Source: Robiginitomaculum sp.
Lineage (GTDB): Bacteria; Pseudomonadota; Alphaproteobacteria; Caulobacterales; Maricaulaceae
Assembly: GCA_016765135.1 (NCBI GenBank)
Contig: JAESQN010000037.1
Location: 1-64,000 of the forward strand
Length of the DNA stretch: 64,000 bases
Reading direction: 5' to 3'
The translations under genes and the position numbers were made by a program. Positions within the stretch are counted from its first letter, which is position 1, and each line of letters begins with the position of its first letter. Shown one piece after another: positions 10,472 to 62,172 of the stretch. A model generated the notes under the pieces. It saw nothing but the letters and a program-made list of their open reading frames with translations, had not been told where the DNA came from and did no database searches.

Positions 10472-10676
10472 AATATCCCCGATAGCTCGTTACCCCTCAC
10501 CTTGTTCCTCTCCCAAAAGGAGAGGAGACGTTAACATAACCCTTCGTGTTTACGGGATTTGATTGATAGAACCTTCGTAACTCTCTGGTGCACCAACTAA
10601 AAAAGGCAGTTGTCACACCGTCTCCTCTCCCCATTTTTCATGCAAGAAGGGGGAGAGGAACAAGGTGAGGGGTAAC
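10472..10676. repeat. Family A palindromic repeat, copy 1
   Basis: A non-coding element of about 200 bases with near-perfect terminal inverted repeats: GTTACCCCTCACCTTG from 10489 and its complement ending at 10676. It matches a second copy at 61985-62172 over its whole length, including the inner block GATAGAACCTTCGTAACT. It fills the gap between rne and the PopA-like gene. The structure suggests a MITE-like mobile repeat; no transposase is linked. Confidence 0.85.
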
Positions 10677-10720
10677 GGGCTTGAGGGGATTACAATATTT
10701 TCCACCTCAACTCTTACATT

Positions 10721-23431: not shown

Positions 23432-23902
23432 ATGGGTAATGATCCAAATGTTTTGATCCAGTTTTTGGAAAATGTCACCGGGGTTCACTGGCTAATATTA
23501 GGCTTTGCCTTGTTAGTCGCAGAAATCGCGTCTGGCACCAGCTATATTTTATGGCCTGCCGTGGCGGCGCTTTTTGTCGGCCTTGTCAAGCTGGTCATTC
23601 CTATTGATTGGGAAATGCAGTTGGTTTTATTTGCCCTGGCCACTACGGCGCTTCTTTATATTGGCCATAAATATATCCGGCCGCGGGTCAAAGGCGGCGA
23701 GCCGTCCGACCTCAATGACCGGGCGCGCTCTATGAGGGGTATGCGGGTTAAAGCGGTCGCAGATTTTGATACGGGACGTGGCCGTGTCCATGTGGGCGAT
23801 AGCCAATGGCGTGCCTCTATGGACGTGGGCAATGCCAAAGCAGGCGACGAGCTTAGGGTTTTGTCGGTTAAAGGCACCACGCTAACGGTAGAGCCGATTT
23901 AG
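23432..23902 (+). CDS. NfeD family membrane protein
   Basis: A 156-residue short-form NfeD protein: two or three membrane segments in residues 15-80 and a C-terminal OB-fold (about 95-155) with VHVGDSQWRASMD and GDELRVLSVKGTTLTVEPI. NfeD proteins partner with the SPFH protein encoded immediately upstream. The long-form serine protease domain is absent. The TAG stop falls inside the first unit of an 18-bp tandem repeat. Confidence 0.9.
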   Translation: MGNDPNVLIQFLENVTGVHWLILGFALLVAEIASGTSYILWPAVAALFVGLVKLVIPIDWEMQLVLFALATTALLYIGHKYIRPRVKGGEPSDLNDRARSMRGMRVKAVADFDTGRGRVHVGDSQWRASMDVGNAKAGDELRVLSVKGTTLTVEPI

Positions 23903-23970
23903 CATAATTATGTAACTTAGCATAATTATGTAACTTAGCATAATTATGTAACTTAGCATAATTATGTAAC
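23899..23970. repeat. 18-bp tandem repeat, four perfect units
   Basis: The unit TTAGCATAATTATGTAAC occurs four times head to tail without a mismatch. Each unit holds the perfect palindrome CATAATTATG. The first unit supplies the nfeD stop codon, and the array ends 65 bases before the next gene. Perfect identity suggests recent expansion by slippage. It is not CRISPR, since there are no spacers. Confidence 0.95.
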
Positions 23971-25761: not shown

Positions 25762-28665
<2,904 letters not shown>

Positions 28666-28669
28666 AAAA

Positions 28670-28765
28670 TTCCCACCCCGCCGCTCATCCCGGCGCAGGC
28701 CGGGAACCATGGTGAAGGCTGATAGATGGGCCCCGTTTTTCAACGGGGTGAGCGGGAGGGGAAGG
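28670..28765. repeat. Family C-related palindromic repeat, copy v
   Basis: Starts CACCCCGCCGCTCATCCCGG with a CCCGGCGCAGGCCGGG hairpin and ends with CAACGGGGTGAGCGGGAGGGG. The ends are inverted relative to each other. It shares the CCGCTCAT edge with family C but has a different interior. It lies directly after the unknown gene at 28207-28665. Confidence 0.6.
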
Positions 28766-28792
28766 ATTGAGTGTATAAGTTTACCACAAAAC

Positions 28793-28922
28793 AACCCCCA
28801 CACCCCGCTCATACCCGGCCCCGACCGGGTATCCAGCGTATAAAGAGCGGGCCTTGCCCGCACATTTCTGATTAAGGGACTGGATACCCAGTCAAGCTGG
28901 GTATGATCGGGGTGTGGGGTGG
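28793..28922 (+). repeat. Family C palindromic repeat, copy ii
   Basis: A complete element with inverted ends (CACACCCCGCTCATACCC at the left, GGGTATGATCGGGGTGTG at the right). Inside are the GAGCGGGCCTTGCCCGC hairpin and CTGGATACCCAG / CTGGGTAT. It lies immediately before the GIY-YIG gene, in opposite orientation to copy iii on the other side. Confidence 0.85.
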
Positions 28923-28950
28923 TTTCATATGTTTTTTACTTGATTTGGTG

Positions 28951-29304
28951 ATGCGCTACATGTATGTTCGCTTTATGTTCTTCGTATATATCGTCACCAA
29001 CAAACGTAATGGCACCCTTTATACGGGGCATACTGAGGATATTTCTATTCGGATTTTGGAGCATAAGGATAAGGTGGATAAAGGGTTTACCGCCAAATAT
29101 GGGTGTGGCCGTTTGGTCTGGTTCGAAACGCACGAGACACGGGACGGGGCGTTCAAGCGCGAGCGGCGCATTAAAAAATGGGACCGGGTTTGGAAATTGG
29201 AGGCGGTTGAAATATTGAACCGGGCATGGGAGGATTTGTACGGCGGATTGACCCATGATAGCGTGTACTGTGATGAGCGCAGGTATGAGAATGCCAGGTT
29301 TTAA
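28951..29304 (+). CDS. Small GIY-YIG nuclease family protein
   Basis: A single-domain GIY-YIG protein of about 117 residues. The motif appears as FVYIVTN...GTLYTGHTED, so the second element reads LYTG where YIG is usual. R (ISIRILEHK) and the conserved EHK are kept, and the later glutamate is in FKRERRIKKWDR. The start is uncertain: in-frame ATGs lie at 28951, 28960 and 28975, and frames further upstream run into the repeat. Standalone proteins like this are related to UvrC and homing-endonuclease domains, but function is unproven. Inverted family C repeats flank it on both sides. Confidence 0.85.
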   Translation: MRYMYVRFMFFVYIVTNKRNGTLYTGHTEDISIRILEHKDKVDKGFTAKYGCGRLVWFETHETRDGAFKRERRIKKWDRVWKLEAVEILNRAWEDLYGGLTHDSVYCDERRYENARF

Positions 29305-29319
29305 TTCCGTGCTCACAAG

Positions 29320-29403
29320 TCGCGTTGTTGTAAATATGTGTGCGCAAGGGCGCACTCTTTATGCGCTGGATACCCAGTCGTAGCTGGGTATGAGCGGGGA
29401 GGG
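29320..29403 (-). repeat. Family C palindromic repeat, copy iii (short)
   Basis: On the minus strand it reads CCGCTCATACCCAGC, TGGGTATCCAGCGCATAAAG and a GTGCGCCCTTGCGCAC hairpin. The third hairpin seen in copies i, ii and iv is missing. It lies just after the GIY-YIG gene and is inverted relative to copy ii. The remaining gap to 29554 shows only the promoter region of the lipoprotein gene. Confidence 0.75.
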
Positions 29404-29554
29404 GGTGCGAGTTGAGAGTATCATAGAACGCCCCCAAACCCAATAATGCGCAAATCTTTAGCCGTTCTATATGCGCTGCACACACAAATATGTGAAACGG
29501 CTTGTCTTGCGTGTTTTGGTTTAACATTGCAATGTCAGGATAGGAGAAAGTTTT

Positions 29555-40086: not shown

Positions 40087-40827
40087 TCAATACCGCGCAT
40101 AGGGGCAGTTTACGATTTGCTCGGAACCTTGAATTATATAGGTGCCGTCGTAAGGGTTTGAGCATTGTTTTACGCTGATAAGTTCCCTATGCCCCCGGTG
40201 ATTGGCTTCAATCACAATCCGTTCGCACCAAGTGCTGGAACGATAGGAGCTATAGGACGAATATCTAGGCTGATAAAAACTATAAGGCGACGATGCCCAA
40301 CGGTATCTGCTATATCCGGGCTGCCCAAAGGTGAAATTTATCCCTATTGAACTGCGGTAATGAGAACGATAGCCATTATGCCTGTTACTCCAGTGCGGGC
40401 GGTGCCTGTCATGCCGCACATGATCACGGCGATGACGATCTCGCCTTATATGGTCTCTACGGTGCCTGTCGCGTCTGGCATGATCACGGCGGTGGCGATC
40501 CTGTCGTGCGTGGTCCCGACGATGACGATCCTGCCGTGCATGGTCACGACGATGCCTATCTGGTCTAGCATGATCCCTGCTACGACGGTCAGTCCTTGCA
40601 TGATCCCTACGATGCTGGTTAGGCCTCGCATGATCTCGACGGTTTCGGTCTGGTCTGACATTATCACGGCGACGATGTTCGCGAGTGCTATTATCATGCT
40701 CTTGAGAAAAACTGGGCTTTGTCGCATGGGCATTGGGTGTCATCAGAAATACTGGTGTAAAAACCGTAGCCGCCATTACGCAAATAAGTGGTTTTGTTAA
40801 CCGGGGCAGTGTTATTGAACGTTCCAT
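40087..40827 (-). CDS. Secreted His/Arg/Asp decapeptide-repeat protein
   Basis: A 246-residue exported protein with an N-terminal signal ending near NAHA (residue 35). Residues 51-144 are nine imperfect copies of a ten-residue unit of the form DHARxDRHRR, giving a strongly basic, His-rich, Asp-punctuated stretch. Residues 145-205 are rich in Tyr, Ser, Arg and Phe. The tail has three cysteines (CERIVIEANHRGHRELISVKQC and NCPYARY). The C-terminal region resembles small periplasmic domains following low-complexity linkers. The repeat could bind metal, nucleic acid or anionic polymer; no function is known. Confidence 0.75.
   Translation of the reverse strand: MERSITLPRLTKPLICVMAATVFTPVFLMTPNAHATKPSFSQEHDNSTREHRRRDNVRPDRNRRDHARPNQHRRDHARTDRRSRDHARPDRHRRDHARQDRHRRDHARQDRHRRDHARRDRHRRDHIRRDRHRRDHVRHDRHRPHWSNRHNGYRSHYRSSIGINFTFGQPGYSRYRWASSPYSFYQPRYSSYSSYRSSTWCERIVIEANHRGHRELISVKQCSNPYDGTYIIQGSEQIVNCPYARY
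40396..40677. repeat. 30-bp tandem repeat array within a coding region
   Basis: About nine imperfect 30-bp units encode the decapeptide repeats of the secreted protein at 40087-40827. The units differ by point changes and by the residues before DRHRR (P, T, Q, R, H). The period and lack of unique spacers exclude CRISPR. Slippage could change copy number in frame. Confidence 0.85.
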
Positions 40828-48667: not shown

Positions 48668-48790
48668 ATCACCCCTCACTCTGCTCATACCCAACTTGAT
48701 TGGGTATCCAGCGCATAAAGAGCGAGCAAAGCTCGCACATTACTGATTAACTGGATTCCCGCTTTCGCGGGAATGAACGGTAAGTGGGGG
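48668..48790 (+). repeat. Family C palindromic repeat, copy iv
   Basis: Begins CTGCTCATACCCAAC, continues GGGTATCCAGCGCATAAAG, then the GAGCGAGCAAAGCTCGC hairpin and TTCCCGCTTTCGCGGGAATGAACGG. It has the same orientation as copy ii. It starts right after the scpB stop and ends about 20 bases before the parE 3' remnant. Confidence 0.85.
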
Positions 48791-61984: not shown

Positions 61985-62172
61985 AATATCCCCGATAACC
62001 CGTTACCCCTCACCTTGTTCCTCTCCCAAAAGGAGAGGAGACGTTACCAATACCTTTCGTGATTACGGGGTTTCACTGATAGAACCTTCGTAACTTTCCA
62101 GTGTAACAATTAAAAAAGGAAGATGCCACACCGTCTCCTCTCCTTTTGGGAGAGGAGACGGTGTGGGGTAAT
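61985..62172. repeat. Family A palindromic repeat, copy 2
   Basis: Matches copy 1 (10472-10676) from AATATCCCCGATA through the core GATAGAACCTTCGTAACT to the right end. The left terminal GTTACCCCTCACCTTG is kept; the right end diverges to GAGACGGTGTGGGGTAA. Internal arms CTCTCCCAAAAGGAGAGG form a hairpin. It lies between convergent rhlE and tatC, where it may also act in termination. Confidence 0.85.

Follow-up and report, generated by a model that had tools for sequence, protein, structure and literature searches.

A small GIY-YIG gene between inverted hairpins

The window, that is, the whole 64,000-nucleotide stretch of Robiginitomaculum sp. DNA analysed here, contains an intact GIY-YIG nuclease gene (P0001) at 28951-29304 on the + strand. 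It encodes a protein of 117 aa, or of 109 aa if the alternative ATG at 28975 is used as a start. The protein matched PF01541 with 53.6 bits (E = 2.7e-14), above the curated cut-off of 22.6, and possesses the catalytic Y, Y, R, H, E, and N, both of which place it in the GIY-YIG superfamily. Indeed, Y13, Y24, R34, H38, E71, and N90 were invariant across an alignment of 19 related proteins. No Pfam domain besides GIY-YIG was found in it, and it is not an HUH-tyrosine protein of the RAYT kind. A single-sequence AlphaFold model (pLDDT 41) was discarded and replaced by a model built with the 19 sequences (pLDDT 87.9). With the latter, Foldseek returned UPF0213 protein 1zg2 first and the Slx1 branched-DNA nucleases next, so that the nearest structures of known activity were repair nucleases, not transposases. 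The modeled resemblance to Slx1 fits a hairpin or junction substrate, although it is no proof of one.

Hairpin repeats lie on both sides of the gene. The proposed REP-GIY-REP unit (28796-29406, +) is about 611 bp long, with its left end in element ii and its right end in element iii, and it ends in two arms of 57 nt in inverted orientation (28797-28853 and 29349-29405), which are 84% identical. This agrees with the earlier note, which had described two repeat copies in opposite orientation on either side of the gene. Element ii comprises a GCTC-tagged REP hairpin at the left outer end (28807-28835, +), a central hairpin, AAAGAGCGGGCCTTGCCCGCACATT, common to gene-less dimers (28842-28866, +), and the inner half of the dimer, a REP hairpin with a GATC tag (28881-28908, −). 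Element iii comprises an inverted copy of the central hairpin (29338-29362, +) and a GCTC-tagged REP hairpin at the right outer end (29367-29395, −). On one side the gene has a full REP dimer (ii), on the other half an element (iii). While the outermost pair of hairpins is inverted, the nearest upstream hairpin has the same direction as the downstream one. The related element reported next to them (v) was recovered as a dimer of two REP hairpins (28683-28709, +, and 28727-28753, −). That the repeats consist of short hairpins was borne out by folding, which beat nearly all of 200 shuffles, with z values of -3.4 to -4.9 for the hairpins of elements ii and iii and of -8.1 for the whole of element ii. 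Likewise, the copies reported elsewhere in the window, near 26198 and 48668, turned out to be genuine relatives. They are gene-less REP dimers, one upstream of thiC (26198-26325) and the other at 48672-48789. Element ii, used as a BLAST query against the 2.87-Mb genome, yielded 82 matches in about 50 places; a generic REP pattern yielded 67, whereas the reversed-pattern control gave 0.

Other features of the window were noticed in passing. The thiC gene (from 26253) has an in-frame TAA at 27834-27836, after ...GLPDRDDV, and conserved ThiC sequence continues in frame to 28220; it is either a pseudogene or a draft-genome error. A second repeat family (10472-10690 and 61985-62160), whose 159-nt copies are 88% alike and contain inverted TCCTCTCCCAAAAGGAGAGGAGACG hairpins, is unrelated to the window REPs. 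Four units of TTAGCATAATTATGTAAC form a perfect 18-bp tandem repeat at 23899-23970, and a degenerate array of a 30-bp tandem repeat occupies 40398-40697.

The chromosome of the window genome carries four small GIY-YIG genes, and REP-type hairpins adjoin three of them. A REP dimer lies upstream of the gene at locus L002, and at L004 inverted, partly disrupted ATCCCGG hairpins around the gene were spotted by eye. The fourth gene, which is YhbQ-like and adjoins tRNA-Ser, has no REP-type hairpin beside it. A sixth, weaker GIY-YIG match (L006) was seen on a short AT-rich contig of the same assembly (G000 contig 47), possibly a contamination.

Two classes of REPs have been distinguished. GTAG REPs are tied to RAYT tyrosine transposases; CGTC REPs, to which Neisseria dRS3 and Rickettsia RPE-4/RPE-6 belong, predominate in alphaproteobacteria, usually form inverted dimers, and were described as elements that "apparently lack a dedicated transposase", their mover being proposed to be lost or generic (Di Nocera et al. 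2013, PMC3733652). The window hairpins have the structure of the CGTC super-family, namely an 8-9 bp stem beginning with AT (ATACCC..GGGTAT), a 4-5 nt loop, a CCA tail, and inverted dimers, which occur throughout the genome. Their terminal tags, however, are GCTC/GATC rather than CGTC, TGTC, or CCTC. Because the tag is GCTC, though stem, loop, tail, and dimers match, we regard them as a related variant and do not file them as CGTC REPs. CGTC/TGTC tags do occur at loci of the enzyme's relatives. Further variants were observed, namely CCTC in one family (L346, L351) and CCGCTTT- or CCGCAC-like tags, to which our scanner is blind, in genomes of the window's order (L324, L353, L354). REP tags are more diverse than the literature indicates.

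REPs beside one GIY-YIG subfamily

PF01541 genes were listed in 289 genomes of the same class, and 93 loci with small genes were examined. This first class-wide sample was ordered by Pfam score, which diluted the signal with YhbQ-like genes, and it became clear only after a subfamily had been split off. The subfamily was defined by the protein motif W.R.[WY]K, picked after viewing the proteins and with no use of the repeats, and a gene was counted as flanked when a CGTC-type REP lay within 250 bp of it. Over the 93 loci, the scanner for CGTC-type hairpins found 42 of them within 250 bp of the genes, or 0.92 per kb as compared with ~0.03 per kb farther out. A stricter scanner gave 1.05 versus 0.018 per kb, and in non-coding DNA alone the densities were 1.57 versus 0.097 per kb, a 16-fold enrichment. 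REPs flanked 30 of the 42 subfamily genes, 1 of the 51 other small GIY-YIG genes, none of the 15 YhbQ-like genes, and 4 of the 79 other genes within these loci (P = 1e-14). No scanner-detectable REP was present at 12 of the 42 subfamily genes, and the scanner misses variants such as those around L004 and L324. A tree in which the motif was not used placed all 31 REP-flanked rows in one nested clade of 49 (SH-aLRT 90), itself within a larger clade with an SH-aLRT of 98, and none of the 42 other rows was flanked. As for orientation, REPs were upstream + and downstream − 44 times and the reverse 13 times, mostly tag-outward on both sides. Independence of repeats and GIY-YIG genes, which the earlier note had given as grounds for abandoning its reading, is thus refuted by position for this subfamily (30/42 versus 1/51). 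Chance was rejected as an explanation, reversed-pattern matches being zero in almost all genomes.

A scan of the genome_contigs collection with the subfamily alignment gave 80 loci, 66 of which were REP-flanked, 33 of them bracketed tag-outward, as compared with 10 of 87 neighboring genes (P = 1e-21). Since the query was itself a REP-flanked gene, this set is biased towards such genes, a bias from which the class sample is free. The loci span Alpha-, Beta-, Gamma-, and Deltaproteobacteria, Bacteroidota, Patescibacteria, Omnitrophota, Nitrospirota, Chloroflexi, Planctomycetota, and others, but individual phylum labels may be wrong because many of the records are metagenome bins. In a viral collection, 20 of 39 loci were REP-flanked. 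Named cases of REP-flanked genes include Neisseria gonorrhoeae, Azospirillum lipoferum, Sinorhizobium meliloti, Rhizobium, and Aeromonas. In N. gonorrhoeae, an unannotated GIY-YIG gene lies within a dense dRS3 array (NZ_CP119140, L168 613-2195); this record, though filed as a plasmid, is a chromosome. At some loci, including that of the window, the gene adjoins whole REP dimers, not single REPs.

The association was also seen between genomes. We called REP-rich the genomes with at least 10 REPs, and counted as extra every GIY-YIG match beyond one, the one taken as UvrC. An extra gene was present in 48 of 57 REP-rich genomes versus 103 of 232 others (P = 4e-8), and in 35 of 36 REP-rich GTDB families versus 50 of 107 REP-poor ones (P = 8e-9); within mixed families, a paired comparison gave 3.6 extra genes in REP-rich genomes versus 2.3 (P = 0.002), all three values being uncorrected for genome size. 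Independence across genomes is likewise refuted by these counts. The other objection anticipated in the earlier note, repeats that are present and equally mobile in strains without the gene, holds in part. On the one hand, 9 of the 57 REP-rich genomes are devoid of an extra gene, as confirmed by a subfamily profile search; on the other, the 35 of 36 REP-rich families have one in some sampled genome.

The repeat tag follows the enzyme clade. Six of 113 REP-flanked proteins have REPs with a GCTC tag, namely those of the window gene, of its paralog, and of four genes from different sources, and these six form one clade (SH-aLRT 95). The GCTC tag requires one change on the tree versus 5.9 in shuffles, none of 500 shuffles being as low. 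In a prospective test, a profile of the GCTC clade was searched across 399 genomes of the phylum: all three new top-scoring loci with detectable REPs carried GCTC, and no GCTC was found at any locus scoring below 136 bits. The high scorers L324, L353, and L354 have REP-like hairpins with other tags, missed by the scanner. Such co-variation is what an enzyme reading its own repeat would produce.

These data bear on the possibility of an indirect association, whereby the genes sit in dispensable intergenic islands in which REPs, moved by an unrelated enzyme, pile up. As a matter of fact, REPs are intergenic and REP-rich genomes without the gene exist. Yet this account sits poorly with the scarcity of REPs at other small GIY-YIG genes (1/51) and at neighboring genes (4/79 and 10/87), with the persistence of the 16-fold enrichment in non-coding DNA only, with the inverted orientation, and with a tag that tracks the enzyme clade, and we regard it as highly improbable.

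Units at unrelated sites and their empty counterparts

A REP-gene-REP unit of 380 bp in genome G207 (locus L053) has matches in three other genomes of its genus (G289, G290, and G322) at non-syntenic places. The matches cover the whole unit up to the outer edge of each REP, and their flanks are unrelated. At the orthologous site in 22 congeneric genomes, neither the gene nor any REP was found, and in two of these genomes 25-33 bp separate the flanking genes. In the same way, a unit with a REP dimer on each side separates sufB from sufC on plasmid p3 of Azospirillum lipoferum 4B (L169 1351-1969), and the sufB-sufC spacer of A. ramasamyi, A. oryzae, and B510, ~96% identical there, contains neither REP nor GIY-YIG gene. 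Shinella units match the S. meliloti unit from REP to REP only, at a different locus. The flanks of the Rhizobium CIAT894 unit gave no usable empty site, since one side is an IS4 element. The two features of an insertion sequence, terminal inverted repeats and non-orthologous sites, are thus present, in the form of the 57-nt arms and of the unrelated sites within one genus. No target-site duplication was found in six units of one genus; the empty sites of the 22 relatives and of the Azospirillum sisters are too diverged at the junction for an exact reading. On comparing these sequences, the REP-gene-REP block appears to move as one piece.

The best rival explanation is that a freestanding homing endonuclease inserts by cutting into the spacer of existing REP dimers, the REPs themselves spreading otherwise; gene-less dimers would then be empty targets. 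The geometry of the bracket equals that of a dimer, the Sinorhizobium K101 spacer corresponding to the REP-gene-REP of S. meliloti holds a REP pair and no gene, and GIY-YIG homing endonucleases are generally known, as exemplified by I-TevI and the Seg proteins. The co-variation of tag and enzyme fits homing and a mobile element alike. However, pre-existing REPs are what the empty sites fail to provide: they were found at 0 of 22 ortholog sites of the L053 unit and were lacking between sufB and sufC in the Azospirillum sister species. Homing would, moreover, require another mover of REPs. Besides, no intron, intein, or fixed allelic target is associated with the gene, which is free-standing and occurs at many unrelated intergenic sites. 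We consider homing unlikely.

Decayed copies were also encountered. In the G207 genus, two further copies (L153 and L154) are disturbed at the 3′ end, and the L154 gene has in-frame stops. Immediately upstream of the intact S. meliloti unit is a truncated second copy of the end of the GIY-YIG gene, accompanied by its REP (L170 1155-1316). Such decay, together with a patchy distribution, several copies per genome, and non-syntenic positions, is difficult to reconcile with a host function, in which an Slx1-like repair nuclease would resolve REP cruciforms and the REPs around its own gene would serve autoregulation. The Foldseek similarity to Slx1 speaks for this possibility, and the adjoining hairpins could have a role in the mRNA of the gene, but we deem it a little less likely still than homing.

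A candidate mobile element and its relation to known systems

Collectively, these data lead us to favor, as the probable reading, that the locus is a compact mobile element of the form REP - GIY-YIG gene - inverted REP, and they make the enzyme a strong candidate for the missing driver of this REP family. This partly upholds the suggestion of the earlier note, in which a GIY-YIG enzyme takes the role that a Y1 transposase has in REP systems: the association of subfamily and REPs, the non-syntenic units, and the tag tracking the clade speak for it, while the cutting or spreading of the repeats by the protein is a prediction. We infer three steps. The REPs belonging to the enzyme would form hairpins, probably on single-stranded or supercoiled DNA, and the small nuclease would recognize these and cut at the hairpin base beside the tag. 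From this cut, the stretch bounded by two inverted REPs would be excised or copied and then inserted elsewhere, and gene-less REP dimers, non-autonomous derivatives in this view, would be mobilized in trans, much as RAYT transposases mobilize REPINs. Host repair or replication would complete the joins; indeed, at ~95 aa and lacking a ligase or recombinase, the nuclease would depend on host functions to finish the movement. The chemistry of the proposed element would be GIY-YIG, replacing the HUH-tyrosine enzyme.

The odds seem to us evenly balanced on a broader proposal, that GIY-YIG enzymes, alone or with host repair, mobilize REP-bounded elements of ~0.4-0.6 kb and, in trans, dRS3, RPE, and CGTC REP dimers, and so represent a new class of prokaryotic mobile DNA. 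CGTC REPs, including dRS3 and the rickettsial RPEs, are among the commonest short bacterial repeats, and the enzyme is a specific, very small, testable candidate for their mover, found next to them in many phyla. If the enzyme acts on REPs, this would be a REP system that runs on another type of nuclease chemistry, and it would rank among the smallest autonomous mobile elements. Searches of openly licensed PMC papers turned up no article that ties GIY-YIG genes to REPs.

I-TevI and the Seg proteins are freestanding GIY-YIG homing endonucleases. The enzyme described here shares their catalytic domain, and theirs too are selfish nuclease genes, but it has ~95 aa, no separate DNA-binding domain, and no intron or intein, and its gene is flanked by inverted hairpins at many unrelated sites. 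Small proteins of the UPF0213/YhbQ type (1zg2, 1ywl) share the same domain and are the nearest solved structures, but YhbQ-like genes were never REP-flanked in the class sample (0/15). In its layout, the window locus resembles a RAYT/REPtron with GTAG REPs/REPINs: one small enzyme gene lies between inverted cognate REPs, more copies occur genome-wide, gene-less REP dimers look like non-autonomous copies, and enzyme and REP types are cognate. It cannot be classed as a RAYT, since its enzyme belongs to another family, GIY-YIG here and HUH-tyrosine (Y1) there, and its tag is not GTAG. Last, the window repeats share with CGTC REPs the order of tag, AT-starting stem of 8-9 bp, short loop, and CCA tail, and the prevalence of inverted dimers, but they carry GCTC rather than CGTC, TGTC, or CCTC and, whereas no transposase was assigned to CGTC REPs (PMC3733652), a GIY-YIG gene is consistently associated here.
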